Source: Acidimicrobiia bacterium (GTDB lineage Bacteria; Actinomycetota; Acidimicrobiia; Spongiisociales; UBA5794). Taken from it: a stretch of DNA of 41,487 bases. The translations under genes were made by a program, and so were the position numbers. The stretch lies in NCBI GenBank assembly GCA_036396535.1, contig DASWKR010000044.1, forward strand, positions 1 to 41,487, in the 5' to 3' direction. Positions 2,778 to 13,839 of the stretch are shown here, one piece after another (the stretch's first letter is position 1; the number at the start of each line of letters is the position of its first letter). The notes beneath the pieces were generated by a model. That model had not been told where the DNA came from, did no database searches, and saw nothing but the letters and a program-made list of their open reading frames with translations.

Positions 2778-3548
2778 TCAGTACATCACGATCCCGGCGC
2801 TGACATTGAGGTCGATTCCGGTGACTGCCGCGGCTGCGTCGCTCGTGAGGAAGAGCGCCGCGGCGGCGACGTCGGAGGCGGCCGTCAGCCTGCCGAGCGG
2901 CGAGTCTCGTTCGAACTCGGCGTGCGCCTCGGCCTCGGAGATGCCGCGTTCCTCGGCCTGCATCTTGATCACCCAGTCGATCCTCGGTCCGGCGACGGGG
3001 CCCGGCGAGATCAGGTTCGCCCTGACCCCATGGGGGCCGGCCTCGAGCGCGATGGAGCGAGTGAGGCCGATGAGAGCGCTCTTCGACGCCACGTACGGCG
3101 ATCGGCCGTACAGGGGCCGCTTGCCCGTCATCGAGCCGAGGATGACGATCGAACCTCTGTCGCCCGCCGCCACCATCCGCCCGAGGAGCGCCCGGCAGCA
3201 CAGGAACACCCCGGTGACGTTCACTGCGAACGTCTCCTCCCATCCGGCGGGCTCCTGCTCCCAGAGCGGACCCGATGGGCCGCCGACGCCGCTGTTGCAG
3301 ACGAGGTGGTCGACGCCGCCGAGGTCGTCGTACGCCCGGTCGACGAGAGCCACGACGCCGGCGGGATCGGTGACGTCCGTCGGATGAACAGACGCCGCTC
3401 CGCCCGCCGACACGATCCCCTTGGCGGTCGCCTCCAGGTTGCCCACGTTGCGGGCTGCCAGCACGACGTGGTCTCCGCGGGCCGCGAAGGCGAGGGCCAG
3501 CTCCCTGCCGATGCCCTGGCCGGCGCCGGTGACGATGGTGACCGTCAC
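2778..3548 (-). CDS. SDR-family NAD(P)-dependent oxidoreductase coupled to hpsN-like gene
   Basis: A 256-residue classical short-chain dehydrogenase. The Rossmann motif TGAGQGIG lies at residues 7-14, the structural NNAG motif is replaced by CNSG, the catalytic serine is in ILGSMTG and the catalytic pair is YVASK. The GTG start at 3548 overlaps the stop of the upstream hpsN-like gene in a GTGA, so translation is probably coupled and the two enzymes probably serve one pathway. In Cupriavidus pinatubonensis, oxidation of 2,3-dihydroxypropane-1-sulfonate uses HpsO and HpsP dehydrogenases beside HpsN, so a role in interconverting the two enantiomers of a diol substrate is a reasonable inference. 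Another secondary-alcohol or polyol substrate is equally possible. Confidence 0.8.
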   Translation of the reverse strand: MTVTIVTGAGQGIGRELALAFAARGDHVVLAARNVGNLEATAKGIVSAGGAASVHPTDVTDPAGVVALVDRAYDDLGGVDHLVCNSGVGGPSGPLWEQEPAGWEETFAVNVTGVFLCCRALLGRMVAAGDRGSIVILGSMTGKRPLYGRSPYVASKSALIGLTRSIALEAGPHGVRANLISPGPVAGPRIDWVIKMQAEERGISEAEAHAEFERDSPLGRLTAASDVAAAALFLTSDAAAAVTGIDLNVSAGIVMY

Positions 3549-4843
3549 TCCGACCACTCCGTGGCGTCGGCGAAGTACTCGGGGTTGCGCCTCAGCCGGG
3601 CGCTGATGGCGTGGCCGTACATCAGCTCTGCATCGGCGACGACGGCGGCGTGCTCTGCGACGTGGAACGAGCCTTCCGGCGTGCACCGCTGGGTGGTGAC
3701 CGTCTTGAGGAACTTCCCGACCCACAGCCCACCGGTGTACCTGGCGGCCCCGACGGTCGGCAACGTGTGGTTGGTCCCGATCGCCTTGTCGGAGTACGCA
3801 ACGGTCGCCTCGGTTCCGACGAACAGGCTCCCGTAGTTGTGGAGCAGCCGTGCGATCTCCTCGGGGCGCGCCGTTTGCACCTCGAGGTGCTCGGGAGCGA
3901 TCTCGTTGGCGACCCTCACCAGCTCGGATTCGTCCTCGCAGACGATCACCGTGCCGTAGTCCCGCCACGCCTGTCCTGCCACATCGGCGGTCGGCCACGT
4001 CTCCAGCCAGCGATCGACCTCGCGGATCGTGGCCTTGGCCACCTCATCGGACGTGCATGCGAGGATGGCGGGCGAAGTCGGGCCGTGCTCAGCCTGTCCG
4101 AGCAGGTCGCAGGCCAGGACCCCCGGGTCCGCCGTGTCGTCTGCGATGATCATGATCTCGGTGGGACCGGCGAGCAGGTCGATCCCGACGCTGCCGAAGA
4201 GCTGACGTTTCGCTTCTGCGACGTAGGCGTTGCCCGGTCCGACCAGCATGTCCACCGGGTCGGATCCCTCGAGACCGAACGCCAACCCGGCCAGAGCCTG
4301 GACACCGCCGACGCAGAAGATCTCGTCGGCGCCCGACTCGACCATCGCCCACAGCTGCGGTCCGTGCATCCCGCCCTCGTCCTTGGGAGGTGCAGCCGCC
4401 AGCACTTCTCGGACACCCGCCACCTTGGCGGTAGCGACCGTCATCACCGCCGAGGCGATCAGCGGGTAGCCCCCGCCGGGGGAGTATGCGCCCACCCTCG
4501 ACACCGGGATCCACTTCTGGCCGAGGAACACGCCGGGGAGGGTCTCCGTCTCGAAGTCGACGAGCGTCTCCCGCTGCAGCCGGGCGAAGTTCGTGACCTG
4601 ATCGATGAGGAAGCGCGCGCTGTGCGCCACGTCGTCTTGCATCTCATCTCGGGCCCGGGCGATCGTCGCATCGTCCACCCTGAAGCTCGGCGGGCTCCAC
4701 TTGTCGAACATCTCGGAGTACCTGCGCACCGCGGCGAGGCCCTCGGAGGCGACGTCGGCGATGATGCGGCTGACCGTCTGGCGTACCTCGTCCGTGATCT
4801 GTGAACCGGGCGGTGACCCTTGCTTCAGGTACGTCGCCACCAT
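3545..4843 (-). CDS. hpsN: Histidinol dehydrogenase-family enzyme of the sulfopropanediol dehydrogenase (HpsN) type
   Basis: A 432-residue member of the HisD family. It keeps the NAD-site strand GAYSPGGGYPLIASAVM, the glycine-rich VGPGNAYVAEAKRQ, the zinc-site LLGQAEHGPTSPA and the catalytic IAPEHLEV. The C-terminal block GTNHTLPTVGAARYTGGL and GKFLKTVT matches what I recall of sulfopropanediol 3-dehydrogenases better than true HisD. HpsN oxidises (R)-2,3-dihydroxypropane-1-sulfonate to (R)-sulfolactate in two NAD-dependent steps. No other his gene lies in the window, and the neighbour is an SDR, both against a role in histidine synthesis. I chose ATG 4843, which follows GGAGG closely; GTG 4840 gives better spacing, and ATG 4891 would add 16 residues that look unlike the family. 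Substrate assignment is inference. Confidence 0.65.
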   Translation of the reverse strand: MVATYLKQGSPPGSQITDEVRQTVSRIIADVASEGLAAVRRYSEMFDKWSPPSFRVDDATIARARDEMQDDVAHSARFLIDQVTNFARLQRETLVDFETETLPGVFLGQKWIPVSRVGAYSPGGGYPLIASAVMTVATAKVAGVREVLAAAPPKDEGGMHGPQLWAMVESGADEIFCVGGVQALAGLAFGLEGSDPVDMLVGPGNAYVAEAKRQLFGSVGIDLLAGPTEIMIIADDTADPGVLACDLLGQAEHGPTSPAILACTSDEVAKATIREVDRWLETWPTADVAGQAWRDYGTVIVCEDESELVRVANEIAPEHLEVQTARPEEIARLLHNYGSLFVGTEATVAYSDKAIGTNHTLPTVGAARYTGGLWVGKFLKTVTTQRCTPEGSFHVAEHAAVVADAELMYGHAISARLRRNPEYFADATEWSE

Positions 4844-4916
4844 GACCTCCAATCCGTCCGACCTCGCCGACCCGGGTTCGCCACCGAGCATGGTCGGTCG
4901 ACGCGTCGGGTGGGCG

Positions 4917-5068: not shown

Positions 5069-5794
5069 TCAGAGCGGCTCTGACATCGGGCGCATCCCGA
5101 TGAGGAACGTCCGCGCATTGTCCGGCTGGGTGAAGGCGAAGACCACGGCCTGCGCCACGTCTCGCGGATCGAGCATTCCTTCGAGCATCGGGTCGCCTTC
5201 TTCGCGACCCGTACCGATGGCGAACTCGGTATGCACGCCCCCGGGCGCCACAACACTCACCTTGACTCCTCTGTCCCTCGTCTCGTAGTCGAGTGCCTGG
5301 GCGAAGCCGACCTGAGCGAACTTCGAGGCGCAGTAGACGGACTCGTTCGGGAGGCCCTTCAAGCCGGCGACCGAAGCGATGAAGCACACCTGTCCGTGGC
5401 GACGCCCGATCATGTCGGGAAGGAACGCCCTCGTGCAGAGGAAGCTGGATCGCATGTTGGTGTTCATCATCCAGTCGTAGTCCTCGACGCTTATCGACTC
5501 GAGCGGTCCGTACTTCCCGACCCCGACGTTGTTGAGGAGGATGTCGACCCTGCCGAAGGCGCCAACGGCCTCCTCCCGGAGCCGGGTGACGTCGCCCGGC
5601 GAGGTGACGTCGGCAGCCACGGCGAGCGCTCGGCCGCCTGCGCCTTCGATCTCGCCGACGAGCCCGGCCAGCCGGTCTTGTCGCCTTGCGGCCGCGACGA
5701 CCGTCGCCCCCTCAGCCGCCAGTGCCAGGGCACTGGCCCGCCCGATCCCGGACGAAGCGCCGGTGACGACCGCGATCTCTCGTGCGAGCCTCAT
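5069..5794 (-). CDS. SDR-family NAD(P)-dependent oxidoreductase
   Basis: A 241-residue classical short-chain dehydrogenase with TGASSGIG near the N-terminus, LNNVG after the fourth strand, the active-site serine in FIASVAGLKG and the YCASK catalytic pair. The basic pair AARRQDR after the second strand suggests NADP(H) preference. Sequence style resembles the broad sepiapterin/serine-dehydrogenase-like SDR group, which includes 3-hydroxyacid dehydrogenases, but no substrate can be named. The ATG is preceded by AGGAGGA (plus-strand 5797-5803), an excellent ribosome-binding site. It is divergent from the FMN dehydrogenase at 5941 with 146 bp between, and is followed in the same direction by the hpsN-like gene after a gap with its own possible promoter. 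Confidence 0.82.
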   Translation of the reverse strand: MRLAREIAVVTGASSGIGRASALALAAEGATVVAAARRQDRLAGLVGEIEGAGGRALAVAADVTSPGDVTRLREEAVGAFGRVDILLNNVGVGKYGPLESISVEDYDWMMNTNMRSSFLCTRAFLPDMIGRRHGQVCFIASVAGLKGLPNESVYCASKFAQVGFAQALDYETRDRGVKVSVVAPGGVHTEFAIGTGREEGDPMLEGMLDPRDVAQAVVFAFTQPDNARTFLIGMRPMSEPL

Positions 5795-5940
5795 GTTCCT
5801 CCTGGACCGTCATGCGTGCCACCCAAAGCCGTTCCCGGCCGCGACCTCGCCGAGGGTACACCCGACCGGTGCGGCTCGACGGGGCACGACGGTTGGCCCC
5901 CGGATGTAGTTTGGCGGCGACACAGCGTCAGGAGGGCCGC

Positions 5941-7155
5941 ATGCTGGACACCTTGCGATCGGTGGTGCGCCTGCGCCCGATAGAGCTCGATCCGGTGACG
6001 CGTCGTCTCGCCAAGGCCGCCAGCGTCGCCGACATGCGCAGGATCGCCAAGCGGCGACTCCCGGGAGGCGTGTTCGACTACATAGATGGGGGCGCCGAGG
6101 ACGAGTCGGCGTTGCGACGCAACTCGAGCGCCTACGCCGAGATCGAGTTCAGGCCGCGCGTGCTGCGCGACGTCGGAAATGTCGACGCTTCGACCACGCT
6201 CCTCGGCAAGGAGCTCGCCTTTCCGCTCGTCCTGGCCCCGACCGGCTTCACCCGGATCGCCGACCCGGCCGGTGAGCTCGCCGTTGCTCGCGCCGCCGAA
6301 CGGGCAGGGGTCCCGTACTCGCTGTCGACCCTGGCGACGCGCTCCATCGAGGACGTGGCGGCGGTCAACGGCGGTCGCAAGTGGTTCCAGGTGTATGCAT
6401 GGCGTGACCGAGGGCTCGTGAAGGAGATGGTCGACCGCGCCAAGACCGCCGGTTACGAGGCCCTCATCCTCACGGTGGACACGGCGGTCCTCGGGCGCCG
6501 GGAGCGCGATGTCAGGAGGGGATTCACGCTGCCTCCGAAGATCGGGCTCGGCACCCTCGTCGACGGAGCACGGCATCCCGGATGGACACTGGCCTTCATC
6601 CGGGCCGAGCCGATCGCCTTCGCCAACGTGGTTGGACGCGGCGTCGGCGACGGCTCCGATCCGATCTCGCTCGCCGACTACATCAACGATCAGTTCGACC
6701 CGTCGTTGTCGTGGGACGATGTCTCGTGGCTCCGCTCGGCCTGGGAAGGGCCCATCGTGCTCAAGGGCATCCAGACCGTCGACGACGCCAGGATCGCTGC
6801 CGACAGCGGCGTGGCCGCCATCGCCATCTCCAACCACGGCGGCCGCCAGCTCGACTCGGCCCCGGCGGCCGTCGAGCTCGTCTCGGAGGTCGCCGACGCC
6901 GTGGGCGGGCGAATCGAGATCATCTGTGACGGCGGGGTGAGGCGGGGCTCGGACATCGTCAAGGCGGTCGCGCTCGGCGCAAACGCGTGCATGGCGGGGC
7001 GCGCCTACCTCTACGGGTTGGGCGCCGCAGGGGAGCGGGGGGTCGATCACGTCCTGCGCATGCTCGAGGAAGGGGTCCGGAGGACGATGGCCCTCGTGGG
7101 TGCGCCGACGGTCTCGGCGCTGACACCCGAAGTCGTGCGGCGGCACGCCAAGTGA
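5941..7155 (+). CDS. lldD: FMN-dependent L-lactate / alpha-hydroxyacid dehydrogenase
   Basis: A 404-residue TIM-barrel flavoenzyme. It shows the N-terminal helix (SVADMRRIAKRRLPGGVFDYIDGGAEDE), FPLVLAPTGFTRI, the FMN phosphate strand LTVDTAVLGRRERDVRRGF, IVLKGIQTVDDARIA (lysine on the flavin), the catalytic ISNHGGRQLD and the closing ICDGGVRRGSDIVKA and AYLYGL. The pair of substrate arginines in the R-x-R-D region and after HGG fits L-lactate dehydrogenase, glycolate oxidase or mandelate dehydrogenase; L-lactate to pyruvate with electrons passed to the quinone pool is most likely. The SNHGGRQLD motif separates it from the mycofactocin-maturase MftD branch, where I expect GGNNLD. AGGAGG at 5930-5935 sets the start. 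Confidence 0.85.
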   Translation: MLDTLRSVVRLRPIELDPVTRRLAKAASVADMRRIAKRRLPGGVFDYIDGGAEDESALRRNSSAYAEIEFRPRVLRDVGNVDASTTLLGKELAFPLVLAPTGFTRIADPAGELAVARAAERAGVPYSLSTLATRSIEDVAAVNGGRKWFQVYAWRDRGLVKEMVDRAKTAGYEALILTVDTAVLGRRERDVRRGFTLPPKIGLGTLVDGARHPGWTLAFIRAEPIAFANVVGRGVGDGSDPISLADYINDQFDPSLSWDDVSWLRSAWEGPIVLKGIQTVDDARIAADSGVAAIAISNHGGRQLDSAPAAVELVSEVADAVGGRIEIICDGGVRRGSDIVKAVALGANACMAGRAYLYGLGAAGERGVDHVLRMLEEGVRRTMALVGAPTVSALTPEVVRRHAK

Positions 7156-7225: not shown

Positions 7226-8719
7226 ATGAACCTGATTCGCCACTGGATCAACGGCAAGGAGCATCAGGCCGACCCGGAGAGGACGGGCGACGTCTACGAC
7301 CCCGCCACGGGGGAGATCGCCTCACAGGTCGCATTCGCCTCGGTGGCCGAGGTCGATATCGCCGTCCAAGCGGCCTCCGACGCCTTTCCCGGGTGGCGGG
7401 ACACCCCGGTCACGGCGCGCCAGAAGGTGATGTTTCGCTTTCGCGACTTGGTCGAGTCGCACCTCGACGACATCGCCAAGCTGATCACCACCGAGCACGG
7501 CAAGACGTTCGACGATGCCAGGGGCGAGGTCAACAGAGGGCTCGAGGTGATCGAGTTCGCGACGGCGATCCCACACCTCCTCAAGGGTGACTACTCGGAG
7601 CAGGTCTCCCGCAGCGTCGACACCTACACCATTCGTCAGCCGCTCGGGGTGGTAGCGGGGATCACGCCGTTCAACTTCCCGGCGATGGTTCCCATGTGGA
7701 TGTACCCGATGGCGATCGCCTGCGGCAACACCTTCGTGCTCAAGCCGTCGGAGAAGGACCCGTCCCCTTCGATGCTGAGCGCCGAGCTCTTCGCAGAGGC
7801 GGGGCTTCCCGACGGTGTGCTCAACGTCGTTCATGGTGACAAGGTTGCGGTCGATCGCATCCTCGAGCACCGCGACATCAAAGCGGTGTCGTTCGTCGGC
7901 TCGACGCCGATCGCTCGCTACGTCTACACGACCGGGTCGGGGAACGGGAAGAGGGTCCAGGCGCTCGCCGGGGCCAAGAACCACATGATCGTGCTCCCGG
8001 ATGCGGACATGGAGCTGGCCGCCGACTCTGCGGTCTCGGCGGGGTACGGGTCGGCTGGGGAGCGGTGCATGGCCATCTCGGTGATCGTCGCCGTCGGCGG
8101 CGCCGCCGACAGGCTCATCCCGCTCATCGAGGACAGGATCGCCAAGCTCAAGGTCGGCCCCGGTCTCGAGGCCGGCGCCGAGATGGGCCCGCTCATCACG
8201 AGGGAGCACCGGGACAAGGTCGCCGGGTACATCGACTCCGGGGTCGACGCAGGCGCCACGTTGGTGACCGACGGGCGCGACTTCTCGGTGAAGGGTTACG
8301 AGGACGGGTTCTTCCTCGGTCCCACACTGTTCGACAACGTGACGAGGGACATGACGATCTACCAAGACGAGATCTTCGGGCCCGTCCTCTCGGTGGTGCG
8401 CACCGACCGCTACCAAGACGCCATCGAGCTCATCAACGACAACCCATGGGGCAACGGAACTGCGGTGTTCACGAACGATGGCGGGGCGGCTCGCAAGTTC
8501 CAGAACGAGATCCAGGTCGGCATGGTCGGCATCAACCTCCCGATCCCCGTGCCGCTGGCGTTCTACAGCTTCGGTGGGTGGAAGGAGTCCATCTTCGGCG
8601 ACCACTCCATCTACGGTCCGGAGGGGATCGCCTTCTATACGAAGCCGAAGGTCGTCATCAGCCGCTGGCCCGATCCGATGCACCGGGGCGTCGACCTCGG
8701 ATTCCCGCAGCACGGCTGA
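7226..8719 (+). CDS. mmsA: CoA-acylating methylmalonate-semialdehyde dehydrogenase
   Basis: A 497-residue aldehyde dehydrogenase that converts (S)-methylmalonate semialdehyde, NAD and CoA to propionyl-CoA and CO2 (malonate semialdehyde to acetyl-CoA) in valine, thymine, inositol and beta-alanine breakdown. MmsA hallmarks are visible: GVVAGITPFNFPAMVPMWMY, GNTFVLKPSEKDPS, the AGAKNHMIVLPDAD block that replaces the usual ALDH segment and the catalytic cysteine in GSAGERCMA. Length is typical for the family. The ATG has GGAAGGAG at 7213-7220. Its stop overlaps the GntR start in TGATG, so enzyme and regulator are one transcript. The substrate-supplying pathway (for example iol or mmsB) is not in the window. 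Confidence 0.92.
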   Translation: MNLIRHWINGKEHQADPERTGDVYDPATGEIASQVAFASVAEVDIAVQAASDAFPGWRDTPVTARQKVMFRFRDLVESHLDDIAKLITTEHGKTFDDARGEVNRGLEVIEFATAIPHLLKGDYSEQVSRSVDTYTIRQPLGVVAGITPFNFPAMVPMWMYPMAIACGNTFVLKPSEKDPSPSMLSAELFAEAGLPDGVLNVVHGDKVAVDRILEHRDIKAVSFVGSTPIARYVYTTGSGNGKRVQALAGAKNHMIVLPDADMELAADSAVSAGYGSAGERCMAISVIVAVGGAADRLIPLIEDRIAKLKVGPGLEAGAEMGPLITREHRDKVAGYIDSGVDAGATLVTDGRDFSVKGYEDGFFLGPTLFDNVTRDMTIYQDEIFGPVLSVVRTDRYQDAIELINDNPWGNGTAVFTNDGGAARKFQNEIQVGMVGINLPIPVPLAFYSFGGWKESIFGDHSIYGPEGIAFYTKPKVVISRWPDPMHRGVDLGFPQHG

Positions 8720-9411
8720 TGACCACCGAGGCGTCCTCGCTGGAGAGCACACTGCGGGCTGCGGCGGCGGCAGGCGGATCGGCGCGCCAGACCGCCCACG
8801 AGTACTCGCGAGATGCCGTTCGTCGAGCGATCCTCAACGGGGAGCTCGAGAGCGGCACTCGCCTCGTCCAGGCCGAGCTCGCTGCGACCCTCGATGTCAG
8901 CACGACCCCAGTGCGTGAGGCGCTACGCGACCTGGCAGCCGAGGGTCTGGTGCGCTTCGACCCGCACCGCGGGGCGGTGGTGAGCGAGATGAGCGGAGAC
9001 GACCTCGAGGAGATCTACGACCTCCGCCAGCTCCTCGAGCCCCACGCCCTCCGCCAGGCCGTCCCGAACCTGACGGACGAGATCATCGATGCGCTCGAGG
9101 TGCTGCACGAGCAGATGGCGAACGAGCCGAGGTCCGCCCAATGGGTCGACCAGAACCGAGCGTTCCACATGCTCATCTACGAGTCGGCGGCCACACCTCG
9201 CCTCGCCGCCATCATCCGCGGCCTCGAGGACTCTGCGGTCATGTACATCGGAGCTTCGTTGCGGTCGGCTCCCGAGCTGAGGGACGACGCCATCCGGGAC
9301 CACGCCGAGCTCGTCGAGGCGCTCCGCAGGCGGGACGCCGATGAGGCGGTGGCGGTCATCAAGCGCCACCTCGGCATCCCGCTGCGCGCCCTGGGCTCCA
9401 GGCTCGGGTGA
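8719..9411 (+). CDS. GntR-family (FCD-type) transcriptional regulator
   Basis: A 230-residue regulator. The N-terminal winged helix spans about residues 25-90, with the GntR signature SRDAVRRAILNGELESGTRLVQAELAATLDVSTTPVREALRDLAAEGLV. The all-helical FCD effector domain follows, with DLRQLLEPHALR, NRAFHMLIYESA and DHAELVEALRRRD carrying the acidic and histidine residues that usually hold a metal and a small organic acid. It starts inside the mmsA stop codon (TGATG), so it probably senses a metabolite of the MmsA pathway and controls this operon; the palindrome at 9574-9590 ahead of the next operon is another possible target. Its own stop codon lies at the edge of the tandem hairpin repeat. 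Confidence 0.88.
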   Translation: MTTEASSLESTLRAAAAAGGSARQTAHEYSRDAVRRAILNGELESGTRLVQAELAATLDVSTTPVREALRDLAAEGLVRFDPHRGAVVSEMSGDDLEEIYDLRQLLEPHALRQAVPNLTDEIIDALEVLHEQMANEPRSAQWVDQNRAFHMLIYESAATPRLAAIIRGLEDSAVMYIGASLRSAPELRDDAIRDHAELVEALRRRDADEAVAVIKRHLGIPLRALGSRLG

Positions 9412-9419
9412 GCCTTTCT

Positions 9420-9540
9420 CGTTCTTGCGTCCCTGTGTCGCGTTGATGCGATGCGGGGACGCCGGAACGGATGGTGCGGTGAGCCTTCTCGTTCTTGCGT
9501 CCCTGTGTCGCGGTGATGCGATTGGGGGACGCCGGAACGG
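9420..9540. repeat. Tandem hairpin repeat, copy B (two units)
   Basis: Second occurrence of the repeat at 2648-2770: units 9420-9470 and 9490-9540, again with a spacer like ATGGTGCGGTGAGCC. Within the units the outer stem is unchanged, while the central loop differs from copy A and between the two units. Just upstream, GGTGAGCCTTTCTC, which includes the GntR stop codon, resembles the spacer, so the element has inserted or spread right up to the gene end. Confidence 0.85.
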
Positions 9541-9573
9541 GTTTGGCGGGCGCATCCCCTCGAGCGTGCGGAT

Positions 9574-9590
9574 AATATACGATGCATATT
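9574..9590. promoter_or_regulatory. AT-rich palindrome ahead of the HMGL-M24-PEP operon
   Basis: AATATACGATGCATATT is an imperfect 17-bp palindrome (AATAT and ATATT arms) in a very GC-rich background, 37 bp upstream of the next start. It overlaps a -10-like TAATAT / GATAAT (9571-9578). Position and symmetry suit an operator, possibly for the GntR protein encoded just upstream; no good -35 was found. Confidence 0.45.
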
Positions 9591-9627
9591 GAGCCTCGAT
9601 GGGGCCGACCTCGAGAGGAGAGCGCAC

Positions 9628-10857
9628 ATGTCCGAGGAGCCCTGGAAGACCGACCGCTGGTTCTCGAGTCCGTGGAACTACCTCCCAGAGGTGACGGCCG
9701 GTTTCCAGATCCCGGACGAGGTGACGATCCACGACGTCACGCTGCGCGACGGTGAGCAGCAGGCGGGCGTCGAGTTCTCGGCAGACGAGAAAGTCCGCAT
9801 CGCCGAGGCGCTCGCCGCCGCCGGGATCCACCGCATCGAAGCGGGCCTCCCCGCCGTATCACCGGCCGACAAGGAGGCGATCGAGCGGATGGTTGCGCTC
9901 GACCTGCCGACGGAGATCTACGCCTTCTCCCGCTGCATGGTCGCCGACGTCGAGCTGGCGCTCGACTGTGGGGTGACGGGCGTCGTCATGGAGGTGCCGG
10001 CCAGCCACCACCTCATCGAGAAGGCGTACAACTGGCCGATCGAGAAGGCGATCGAGGCGTCCGTCGAGTCGACGAAGTACGCCCACGAGAACGGCCTCAA
10101 GGTGACCTTCTTCCCGATCGACGCCACGAGGGCGTCGATGGTCGAGCTGCTCGACGACCTCGAGGCGGTCGCCACGAACGGCCATGTCGACAACGTCGCA
10201 TTGGTCGACACGTTCGGGGTCACCTCCCCGCACGCGATCGGGTACTACACGCGGCGCGTCAGGGAGCGCCTCGCGGTGCCGCTCGAGACGCACTTCCACA
10301 TGGACTTCGGGATGGGAGTCGCCAACTCGATCCTGGCCGTCGCCGAAGGAGCCTCCGTCATCCACACGACGGTGAGCGGCCTCGGGGAGCGGGCAGGCAA
10401 CGCTCCGACCGAGGAGACGGTGCTGGCGTTGCTCACGATGTACGGCATCGACACCGGCATCGACACCACGAAGTTCACCGAGATCGCCCGCCTCGTCGCC
10501 GAGCTCTCCGGCGTGCGCCAACCGTCCAACCGGCCGATCACCGGCGACCGCCTGTACAACGTCGAGTCGGGGATCATCGCCACGTGGGTCAAGAACGTCG
10601 GCGACGAGCTGCTCGAGCCGTTCCCGTTCCGGCCGGAGCTCGTCGGCCAGCCACCACCCGAGATCGTCCTCGGCAAGGGCTCGGGCCTCGACTCGGTCGC
10701 CATCTGGCTGGGGCGCCACGGGGTGCACGACGCCGACACGAAGGAGATAGAGGCCATCCTGGCGGAGGTCAAGGGGCGGTCGCTCGCCAAGAAGGGGCTG
10801 CTCGACGACGAAGAGTTCGTGGCGATCGTCAACGACGTGCTCCCCGGGCGCCTCTAG
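9628..10857 (+). CDS. HMGL-like (isopropylmalate synthase-type) carboligase/lyase, substrate unknown
   Basis: A 409-residue TIM-barrel protein of the DRE-TIM metallolyase superfamily, which contains isopropylmalate, citramalate, homocitrate and phosphonomethylmalate synthases and HMG-CoA lyase. It shows DVTLRDGEQQAGVEFS (catalytic and metal-binding residues), a helix with RIEAGLPAVSP, the paired histidines in THFHMDFGMGVANS and the glycine-rich GLGERAGNAPTEE. In most relatives the paired-histidine motif reads HxHNDLG; here it is HFHMDFG. The regulatory C-terminal domain of LeuA is absent. GAGAGGAG at 9613-9620 sets the ATG start. It leads an apparent operon with the M24 protein (58 bp gap) and the PEP-utilising protein. 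The reaction likely joins or splits an acyl-CoA or 2-oxoacid, but the substrate cannot be named. Confidence 0.8.
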   Translation: MSEEPWKTDRWFSSPWNYLPEVTAGFQIPDEVTIHDVTLRDGEQQAGVEFSADEKVRIAEALAAAGIHRIEAGLPAVSPADKEAIERMVALDLPTEIYAFSRCMVADVELALDCGVTGVVMEVPASHHLIEKAYNWPIEKAIEASVESTKYAHENGLKVTFFPIDATRASMVELLDDLEAVATNGHVDNVALVDTFGVTSPHAIGYYTRRVRERLAVPLETHFHMDFGMGVANSILAVAEGASVIHTTVSGLGERAGNAPTEETVLALLTMYGIDTGIDTTKFTEIARLVAELSGVRQPSNRPITGDRLYNVESGIIATWVKNVGDELLEPFPFRPELVGQPPPEIVLGKGSGLDSVAIWLGRHGVHDADTKEIEAILAEVKGRSLAKKGLLDDEEFVAIVNDVLPGRL

Positions 10858-10915
10858 ATTCGATCGAGGAGCCGCGCGGGCGACGGTCGTCCGACGACCA
10901 TCAGAAAGGCAAGGG

Positions 10916-12154
10916 ATGAGGGAAGCGTTCTTCGGGCTCAGCACCGACTGGAAGGAAGGCATCAATTGGGCGAACGTCCGCGATTGGCGCCTGAAGCGGG
11001 CCCACGCCGCCATGGAGCGGGCAGGCCTCGGCGCCCTCCTGCTCTTCTACGACGAGAACATGCGGTATGTCTCGTCGACGCTCACCCCCGGGTGGAACCG
11101 ACTCAAGCCGGGGCTCCGTTACGTCGTGCTCCCCAAGGGCAAGCCGCCGATCGTGTACGAGCAGGGTGACATCGGTTTCCACCTCGAGGTGCACAACCCG
11201 TGGATCCCGAAGGAGAACATCCGCCACTCGTACGTCTGGATCAAGGGTGCGGTCGGCCCCGCCGCCGAGCAGCAGGTCAACAAGTTCGTCGACGCCCTCG
11301 CCAACGACCTCGAGGACGCAGGAGTCTCCGACTTGCCGCTCGGCGTCGACTTCATCGACATCAACCTCTTGCGCGAGTTCGAGAAGCGCGGCATCAAGTG
11401 GACGGACGGCATGAGCCCGATGATGGAGGCCCGTGCGATCAAGAGCCCCGACGAGATCAAGGCGTTCTCGATCGTCGGAGCGATCTGTGACTACGTCCAC
11501 TACGAGATCACGAACTTCATCAAGCCGGGCCTCACCGAGAACGAGGTGGCGGCGTTCGGATTCGAGAAGTTGTACTCGATAGCGGGCATGGAGGACGTGG
11601 AGGACGTGATCGTGTCGTCCGGGCCGAACGCCTGGCCGAACTGGCGCAACTTCTCCGATCGCATGATCCGTCCAGGCGAGCTGGTGATCATCGACTTGGC
11701 GGCGCTCACCTGGAACGGCTTCAAGTCGTGCGTCTACCGGACCTACTGCGTCGGTGGCAAGCCGACCGACGCTCACCAGAAGACGTACGACGAGGCTCAC
11801 AAGTGGCTGTGGGACTCGATCGCGATGGTCAAGCCGGGCGTCACGACGCGCGACGTCGCCCTCAAGTGGCCGTCCGCCCAGGAGGCGTGGGGTTACGAGG
11901 AGGAAGACCAGGCGGCTGCCAACAACTGGGGCCACGGACTCGGGCTCGCCCAATACGACCCCCCGGTGATCTCGCGGATCTGGTCGCTCGATCACCCGGT
12001 GGAGATCCAGGAGGGGATGACGTTCGCCCTCGAGACCCAGCACGGCGTGCTCCACGACCACGGCGTGCGGCTCGAGGAGATGCTGTACGTCACGCCCACC
12101 GGCTTCGAGATGGTCTCGACCTACAAGCAGCACGAGATCATCGCCGTCGATTGA
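10916..12154 (+). CDS. M24-family peptidase-fold protein with altered metal site
   Basis: A 412-residue pita-bread-fold protein with an N-terminal creatinase-like domain (about residues 25-165) and a C-terminal M24 domain. Xaa-Pro aminopeptidases bind two metals through Asp, Asp, His, Glu, Glu. Here the first Asp (IIDLAAL), the His (NNWGHGLG) and the two Glu (FALETQ and RLEEM) can be assigned, but the position of the second Asp in the GYxSDxxRT motif reads GFKSCVYRT, a cysteine. Creatinase, which is not a metallopeptidase, also lost this site. An amidino- or amide-hydrolase role on a small molecule is therefore as likely as peptidase activity. The ATG follows AAAGGCAAGG. It overlaps the next gene by four bases, indicating one operon. 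Confidence 0.8.
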   Translation: MREAFFGLSTDWKEGINWANVRDWRLKRAHAAMERAGLGALLLFYDENMRYVSSTLTPGWNRLKPGLRYVVLPKGKPPIVYEQGDIGFHLEVHNPWIPKENIRHSYVWIKGAVGPAAEQQVNKFVDALANDLEDAGVSDLPLGVDFIDINLLREFEKRGIKWTDGMSPMMEARAIKSPDEIKAFSIVGAICDYVHYEITNFIKPGLTENEVAAFGFEKLYSIAGMEDVEDVIVSSGPNAWPNWRNFSDRMIRPGELVIIDLAALTWNGFKSCVYRTYCVGGKPTDAHQKTYDEAHKWLWDSIAMVKPGVTTRDVALKWPSAQEAWGYEEEDQAAANNWGHGLGLAQYDPPVISRIWSLDHPVEIQEGMTFALETQHGVLHDHGVRLEEMLYVTPTGFEMVSTYKQHEIIAVD

Positions 12155-13839
12155 GCGAAGCTCCGCCGGCGACCCCGCTCGTCCTCGACCTCGACGACGA
12201 GCGAAGCCTCGATCCGTCCGTGAGCGGAGCCAAGGCAGCGTGGCTGGCGTACGCCCGCTCGGCGGGCCTGCCCGTGCTGCCCGGCCGCGTCGTCACCACC
12301 GCGGCCTCGCGTCCTGCCATGGCCCTCGGAGCCGAGACGATGCGAGAGCGCGGGTCGGGGGGCGCCCGACTCGTCGTGACGCGGATGGATCTCGACCCGG
12401 AGCTGCTCGGCGGGTTGGAGGCCGCCGCCGACGTCGCCCCGGAGCTGGTCGTCCGATCGTCGTCGCTGCTCGAAGGCGGCGGGGAATGGGCCGGAGCGTT
12501 CACGTCATATGTCGGTGTCGGCCCCGATGACGTTCCCCTGGCCGTGCGCGGGTGTTGGGCGTCGGCTTTCTCGGTGCACACCCTGGAGCGATACGAGGTG
12601 GCCGGGATCGTGCCGGGCTCCACGCCGATGGCCGTGTTGATCCAACCGCTCCTGCTGGCCGCCTTCGGGGGCACGGCGCGGCTCGACGGTGAGGACGTGT
12701 CGATCGTCGCCGTCGCCGGTTCGCCCGCAGCTCTCCTGCAGGGGTGGGAGCCGGGCGCAACCGCCAGGGTCGCGGTCGACGGCACCGTGGCCGGTCCGGC
12801 CGCACAACTCGTAGGCGAGTCCACGTTGCGGCGCATCGCTGCCGAGCTGCGACGGGCCGCAGACGCCGTCGGGGCGTCCACGTGCGAATGGGCCCTCGAC
12901 ACAGATGACGGGATCACCCTGCTCCAGGTGGGACGATCACCGGTCACGGCCGACTCCCAGCTCGAGGTGCATCCCGACCTCGCTCTCCCTGCGGCGGCTC
13001 GCATCGCCTCGCTGACTCGGAGGTTTCCCGGCCCGATCGGCGAGGAGCTCGTGCTCCCGTGGGCCGTCTCCATCCTCGGAGACCCGCCGCAGCCGAGCGA
13101 CGTCGGGGTCCCCGTCGAGCGGCTCGTCGACGAGATCGTGATGAGATCGGAGATGCTGGCCGCCGCCGTCTGGGGTCGACCGCCGCTCGAGGCGCGCCGA
13201 GAGGCTGCCGCGGTGCTGTCCGGCCTGAGGGGACAGGAACCGGGAGCGGCGCTGGCCCGCATCGGGGGCCTCGCTCCTGCGGACGAGGGGAGAGCAGCCG
13301 AGCTGCTCGGCGTCCTCGAGGCGGCCCGAGAGGCACTCGTGGAGGCGGGGGCGGCGAGCCGGAGCGAGCTCGCATGGCACATCGGAGTGGAAGAGGCTCG
13401 GCGCATCCTGGCCGGGGACATGGACCCCTTGCCCAGGAGGCGGTTCGGTTTCGGGGTATGGGAGCCCTTCAACGCCGCGGTGGTCCTCGGGACCGGCGAA
13501 CGGCTCCCCGGGGTGGCGGCCGCCCCCGGTGTCGGCTGCGGTCGCCTGCGATTCCTCAGGGACACCGGCGGGATGACGCGGTTTGTCGCCCGCGACGTCG
13601 TGGTGGCCCGGTATCCGCTCCCGAATTGGGCTCAGCTGCTGTGGGACGCCGCCGCGGTTGTCACGCTCGGTGGGGGACCGGGCGCACACCTCTTCGAGTC
13701 GGCTCGCGCCTTGGCGATCCCGGCGGTGTGCGGAGTGCACTTGGAGGACACCCTCGGCATGCCGCTCGAGGAGGCCGATGGGCGCTATGCCATCGCCGTC
13801 GACGGCACGAACGGGATCGTGGCACTGACGGAATGGTGA
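12151..13839 (+). CDS. PEP synthase/rifampin-phosphotransferase-like protein (ATP-grasp plus phosphohistidine domain)
   Basis: A protein of about 562 residues. The N-terminal half resembles the PPDK/PEP-synthase ATP-grasp domain (VSGAKAAWLAYARSAGLPVLPGRVV, then VVRSSSLLEGGGEWAGAFTS). The last 110 residues form a swivelling phosphohistidine domain, with GVAAAPGVGCGRLRF and GGGPGAHLFESARALAIPAV, where the histidine aligns with the phosphorylated one of the GGxxSHxAI motif. It lacks the PEP-binding barrel of PEP synthase (about 790 aa), so it may phosphorylate another acceptor, as rifampin phosphotransferase does. The start is TTG 12151, overlapping the M24 stop (TTGA); this is the only start that fits the domain. 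Together with its partners it may belong to an unknown small-molecule pathway. Confidence 0.7.
   Translation: MSEAPPATPLVLDLDDERSLDPSVSGAKAAWLAYARSAGLPVLPGRVVTTAASRPAMALGAETMRERGSGGARLVVTRMDLDPELLGGLEAAADVAPELVVRSSSLLEGGGEWAGAFTSYVGVGPDDVPLAVRGCWASAFSVHTLERYEVAGIVPGSTPMAVLIQPLLLAAFGGTARLDGEDVSIVAVAGSPAALLQGWEPGATARVAVDGTVAGPAAQLVGESTLRRIAAELRRAADAVGASTCEWALDTDDGITLLQVGRSPVTADSQLEVHPDLALPAAARIASLTRRFPGPIGEELVLPWAVSILGDPPQPSDVGVPVERLVDEIVMRSEMLAAAVWGRPPLEARREAAAVLSGLRGQEPGAALARIGGLAPADEGRAAELLGVLEAAREALVEAGAASRSELAWHIGVEEARRILAGDMDPLPRRRFGFGVWEPFNAAVVLGTGERLPGVAAAPGVGCGRLRFLRDTGGMTRFVARDVVVARYPLPNWAQLLWDAAAVVTLGGGPGAHLFESARALAIPAVCGVHLEDTLGMPLEEADGRYAIAVDGTNGIVALTEW

Follow-up and report, generated by a model that had tools for sequence, protein, structure and literature searches.

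Two-part dikinases acting in catabolism are exemplified by HpeHI, CreHI and PpsAB, and dikinases carry the motif TxxGGxxxH in their swivel domain (PMC12167813). RPH homologues keep a catalytic Arg-Glu together with a Lys in their acceptor domain (block 9, conserved as far as clade Q) (PMC4844700). Our literature search found nothing on the combination of an HMGL-like gene, an M24 gene and a dikinase-like gene described here, and no paper coupling the creatinase fold to phospho-His transfer. This locus probably encodes an undescribed two-part enzyme for small-molecule breakdown, present in largely uncultured bacteria of several phyla.

The trio occupies positions 9628–13839 of the window (the whole 41,487-nucleotide stretch analysed), which comes from an Acidimicrobiia genome of 3.13 Mb in 94 contigs. 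Its coordinates (Table 1) match the spacing given in an earlier note on this DNA, a 58-bp gap followed by a 4-bp overlap; in the overlap (TTGA), the start of the dikinase gene falls within the stop of the M24 gene. Pfam matches are to HMGL-like (3.1e-65) for the first gene, Peptidase_M24 (1.2e-34) for the second, and PPDK_N (2.8e-9) plus PEP-utilizers (7.1e-9) for the third. None of the three proteins reaches an NCBIfam equivalog cut-off, and the HMGL-like and M24 proteins lie far below all of them.

Table 1. Features of the trio and its surroundings in the window.
Feature	Coordinates	Strand	Remarks
Histidinol-dehydrogenase-fold enzyme	3545..4891	-	Closest PDB relative HpsN
FMN-dependent 2-hydroxyacid dehydrogenase-like protein	5782..7155	+	Among several oxidoreductase families near the cassette
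CoA-acylating (methyl)malonate-semialdehyde dehydrogenase	7226..8719	+	TIGR01722, 755 bits against a cut-off of 448.5
GntR/FCD regulator (putative)	8719..9411	+	230 aa
Leader between GntR and HMGL	9412..9627	.	Tandem repeat and AT-rich dyad
HMGL-like DRE-TIM protein	9628..10857	+	409 aa; ATG start, AGGAG 5′ of start; optional module
M24 (creatinase/DddP-fold) protein	10916..12154	+	412 aa; core gene
Dikinase-like protein	12151..13839	+	562 aa; core gene; TTG start

Relatives of the HMGL-like gene were found at 76 loci in Acidimicrobiia, Chloroflexi, Rokubacteria, Acidobacteria and Proteobacteria. The earlier note had held that the arrangement would be a chance neighbourhood if the three genes stood apart in every other genome; the complete trio recurs in Acidimicrobiia, Chloroflexi, Acidobacteria and Gammaproteobacteria, and its members are not chance neighbours. 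Among 138 genomes of the window's order, the M24 gene is present in 33, the HMGL-like gene in 24 and both in 20, against 5.7 expected (p = 6e-12, a value that the kinship of the genomes makes only a guide); in a phylum sample of 296 genomes the corresponding counts are six, nine and five. A dikinase profile, built from genes adjoining M24, picks out the identical 33 of the 138 genomes with no exception either way (p = 1e-32, again only a guide among related genomes) and, in the phylum sample, the six M24 genomes plus one weak match. Because the profile was made from M24 neighbours, the M24-to-dikinase direction of this agreement is partly circular, and the sole independent test is that no dikinase occurs in those genomes of the order that lack M24.

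Of 43 distinct M24 loci, 36 extend far enough to show the gene immediately 3′ of M24, and in 35 of these it is the dikinase gene; in 39 of 40 loci a dikinase gene lies no more than 8 kb away. The one M24 locus lacking it downstream, L032, carries other genes in that place. No M24–dikinase fusion gene was seen. At the 41 loci with upstream room, the gene 5′ of M24 is HMGL-like in 23, a Zn-alcohol dehydrogenase in eight and something else in ten; overall, the HMGL-like gene is absent, or its place is taken by the Zn-alcohol dehydrogenase, in 15 of 40 loci, and four genomes of the window's order carry it without the M24–dikinase pair. M24 and dikinase form a fixed core unit, and the HMGL-like gene is an optional module. 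An operon with no known pathway, serving a catabolic or biosynthetic route, is what the earlier note had supposed; the operon is conserved, its setting looks catabolic and we found no described pathway for it, and the note's three enzymes acting in order give way to this pair with a replaceable third gene.

The dikinase-like protein consists of an ATP-grasp domain (residues ~1–269), a variable helical middle (270–440) and a phospho-His swivel domain (~441–562), in which the motif reads TLGGGPGAH513. Its AlphaFold2 model (pLDDT 93.4) has its best full-length structural match in RPH (Z 28.2 over 369 residues, 3.5 Å), a likeness that extends to part of the helical domain, and matches the ATP-grasp protein HpeI with Z 21.3; a search of a viral structure library returned only PPDK-like or ATP-grasp matches. 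Lys28, Arg102, Glu246, Gln259, Gly508 and His513 are invariant across 44 dikinase sequences, among which the second G of TxxGGxxxH varies (G 20, S 14, A 7); the ATP-grasp catalytic residues and the T/SxxGGxxxH phospho-His motif of RPH-type dikinases are both present. Within the same operon type the middle domain ranges from 10 to 185 residues (171 in the window, ~145 in L037–L044, 92 in L018, 52 in L033 and 10 in L132), yet M24 stays highly conserved as this domain shrinks. The RE..K motif that marks the RPH acceptor domain is found in the middle region of none of the 44 sequences, and the model contains no PEP/pyruvate TIM barrel of the kind found in PEP synthase and PPDK. In Acidobacteria and Gammaproteobacteria the M24 partner has 427–450 aa and its match to PEP synthase ends at position 460 of 798, so there too the barrel is missing. 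As judged from sequence, this is a dikinase with its ATP and phospho-His machinery intact but without a complete acceptor domain.

The model of the M24 protein (pLDDT 88.6) adopts, over nearly its full length, the fold of prolidase, DddP and creatinase (Z 34–37). In every member of the pair the second metal Asp is replaced by Cys272, with Asp260, His340, Glu373 and Glu387 kept; four of five metal-ligand positions are thus retained, short of the Asp, Asp, His, Glu, Glu set of M24 dinuclear metallopeptidases. Against the DddP model NF043017 the protein scores 103 bits, with a cut-off of 600. It shares 83–90% identity with M24 proteins of the same order, compared with ~33–52% among the dikinases. 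The Cys variant is wider than the pairing: Cys-type M24 proteins at 35–36% identity occur with no adjoining dikinase among Roseobacter, Paenarthrobacter and haloarchaeal plasmid proteins. A Cys-type M24 on a Phaeobacter plasmid (L092, 7896–9206) shares its cassette with a sugar ABC transporter, an SDR and a TPP-dependent dehydrogenase complex. Plasmid relatives comprise distant M24 proteins only (at most ~38%), together with ordinary homocitrate/citramalate synthases or unannotated homologues. A second M24 subfamily (~30% identity, Asp kept, motif D-F-V-R) adjoins the same HMGL family with no dikinase in Acidobacteria and others (L058, L059, L062–L064, L066–L069 and L087).

In Claisen-type synthases the histidines of the HxHN and HESGIH motifs are catalytic. 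The HMGL-like protein keeps LRDGEQ, HxH and GLGERAGN; in the window protein and all aligned members of its clade, HxHN has become HxHM and HESGIH has become VESGII, and the combination of HxHN with the HESGIH histidines that typifies isopropylmalate, homocitrate and citramalate synthases is absent. The phylogeny against LeuA, CimA and FrbC that the earlier note had called for places the protein, in a small, midpoint-rooted tree, in a clade of its own, separate from LeuA-like, NifV, CimA-like and FrbC-like proteins. That note had regarded each of the three enzymes as departing from its textbook family, and each protein bears this out: HFHMDFG does stand in place of the textbook motif, the missing metal aspartate is precisely the second metal ligand, with the other four intact, and the lack of a PEP barrel agrees with the structure model. 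Loss of both HESGIH histidines had escaped it. Genes of the same HMGL clade also occur with no M24 or dikinase gene nearby (L028, L029, L045 and L046); the cassette around them comprises GntR, RraA-like, HIBADH-like, FAH and ABC genes and, in some, an NMT1-type binding protein; copies in L107 (G192:C470) and G424:C91 have an in-frame TGA and are likely pseudogenes or assembly errors.

Within 8 kb of 40 M24 loci, raw counts gave Zn-alcohol dehydrogenase and HMGL at 25 each, ABC ATPase at 14, Amidohydro_2 at 13, GntR and 2-hydroxyacid dehydrogenase at 12 each, SDR at 11, HIBADH-like at 10, Ldh_2 and GFO/IDH/MocA at eight each and molybdenum hydroxylase at seven; at least one of eight counted oxidoreductase families is present in 39 of the 40 (also a raw count). 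The (methyl)malonate-semialdehyde dehydrogenase is a local neighbour in the window, not seen in other loci. These transporters and dehydrogenases suggest that the cassette serves the breakdown of a small polar compound. Aromatic meta-cleavage came to mind from Amidohydro_2, CMD, FAH and RraA and was set aside, no ring-cleaving dioxygenase occurring in the recurrent neighbour families scanned; FrbC-like condensation was likewise rejected, since the FrbC-like proteins in L095 and L096 fall outside the HMGL clade. A protein of ~500 aa, putatively solute-binding, precedes ABC permeases near sponge-type loci (L043, 698–2200; L086, 718–2223); it belongs to no Pfam or NCBIfam family, and the L086 copy has no sequence match in the PDB. 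L018 encodes a TRAP DctP protein.

The leader contains a tandem repeat at 9407–9540 (1.9 copies of a 70-bp unit, 93% match). Around 9572 it also has an AT-rich dyad, ATAATATACGATGCATATT, and nothing in it matched a sigma-70-type promoter. The GntR/FCD protein is a possible regulator of the cassette. Control by this protein, as put forward in the earlier note, is tentative, a GntR gene being near only 12 of 40 loci and a terminator-like stem separating it from the HMGL-like gene (two such stems in the region against 0.9 expected by chance). Comparison of the DNA 5′ of HMGL genes yielded no common GntR consensus, with AT-rich dyads in a few relatives. A perfect TCTTATATAAGA-type palindrome, a candidate operator, lies ~70–120 bp 5′ of HMGL in Rhodospirillaceae-type loci (L076–L078, L084, L088 and L091).

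The near-obligate pairing, the intact ATP and phospho-His machinery, the lack of a complete acceptor domain in the dikinase and the altered but conserved M24 site lead us to read M24 and dikinase as the two components of one ATP-dependent enzyme that acts on a small molecule and has M24 for its acceptor side, a reading to which we give a probability of roughly 0.5. The β-phosphate of ATP would pass to His513 of the dikinase, yielding AMP and Pi, and the swivel domain would carry it to a substrate lying within the cleft of M24, perhaps a small hydroxy- or oxo-compound supplied by the surrounding dehydrogenases and transporters, where it would activate a hydroxyl, enol or carboxylate. With no classical metal pair, the Asp260/Cys272/His340/Glu373/Glu387 site could then make or break a C–C, C–O, C–S or C–N bond. 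That a pita-bread (M24) fold forms the acceptor half and that its Cys-containing site completes the bond chemistry is plausible but more tentative. The HMGL-like module, where present, might take part in this route by making or cleaving a C–C bond, with the customary Claisen acid/base histidines absent.

The main rival to such a two-component dikinase is a pair of independent enzymes acting in sequence, an M24 lyase or hydrolase of the DddP, DoeA or creatinase kind, whose free product a small RPH-like kinase then binds in the cleft separating its ATP-grasp domain from its swivel domain and phosphorylates there. The close fit to DddP and creatinase folds, the four retained metal-ligand positions and the overall resemblance of the dikinase to RPH, helical domain partly included, all suit it; the 171-residue middle domain of the window dikinase could still hold a substrate, and both the L032 locus and the Cys-type M24 proteins elsewhere lack an adjoining dikinase, which tells against the two-component reading. 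The perfect M24–dikinase pairing across 138 genomes is harder to square with separate enzymes, as are a middle domain that can disappear with M24 little changed and the absence of the RPH acceptor motif, and we consider this alternative possible but on the doubtful side. M24 might instead have no chemistry at all and serve the dikinase as a pseudo-enzyme or regulatory subunit. One metal ligand is indeed lost, and the M24 fold includes known pseudo-enzymes, among them Ebp1/PA2G4 (PMC3888471); conservation of Asp260, His340, Glu373, Glu387 and Cys272 throughout the pair, in a protein much more conserved than its partner, makes this improbable.

Least probable of the readings weighed is that the trio breaks down a C3 sulfonate: an HpsN-like enzyme would form sulfolactate, a 2-hydroxyacid dehydrogenase would oxidise it to sulfopyruvate, the HMGL-like protein would condense this much as FrbC does phosphonopyruvate, and M24 would cleave the C–S bond like DddP, itself a C–S lyase. 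In the PDB the flanking HisD-like protein indeed matches HpsN best (353 against 244 bits) and is nearer to it than to histidinol dehydrogenases, and in L018 a neighbouring Ldh_2 protein reaches 242 bits for L-sulfolactate dehydrogenase, where the cut-off is 500. The route is weakened because the HpsN motif GRY(A/S)H is missing, reading GGYPL here; the HMGL-like protein, moreover, lacks both synthase histidines and falls outside the FrbC-like clade, and HisD-like relatives stand near M24 or HMGL genes in few loci (L082, L113 and L119). The intermediate GGYPL motif perhaps means that the fold serves a third type of substrate.

The two-component dikinase favoured here would be a sign that largely uncultured Acidimicrobiia, Chloroflexi, Acidobacteria and Gammaproteobacteria carry out an ATP-driven activation step not yet described, and suggests that a dikinase can give up its acceptor module and take on an unrelated fold in that role. 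Annotation can readily mislabel such genes as Xaa-Pro peptidase, PEP synthase or isopropylmalate synthase. Set against described proteins, the HMGL-like enzyme shares LRDGEQ, HxH and GERAGN with the DRE-TIM Claisen synthases LeuA, NifV, CimA and FrbC but differs in its altered histidine motifs, a conserved MEVPxSxH and its separate clade, and the HisD-like protein has HpsN (DHPS 3-dehydrogenase) as its closest solved relative without the diagnostic sulfonate-binding motif. DddP (DMSP lyase), DoeA (ectoine hydrolase) and creatinase share the M24 fold with its first Asp, His and two Glu, whereas the protein here has Cys for the second metal Asp. RPH and PEP synthase have the same ATP-grasp domain, swivel and TxxGGxxxH, but the middle domain here spans 10–185 residues rather than ~430 and has neither RE..K nor a PEP barrel. 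Like the two-component phenolic dikinases HpeHI, CreHI and PpsAB, the system as read here spreads its machinery over two genes, uses a phospho-His swivel and sits in catabolic operons. In HpeHI and PpsAB phosphotransfer requires a separate second component, a role that M24 may play for the dikinase with which it is genetically paired. HpeI supplies the ATP-grasp domain there and HpeH the acceptor and swivel domains together, whereas here a single protein has both ATP-grasp and swivel, and the M24 fold proposed as acceptor part is unrelated.
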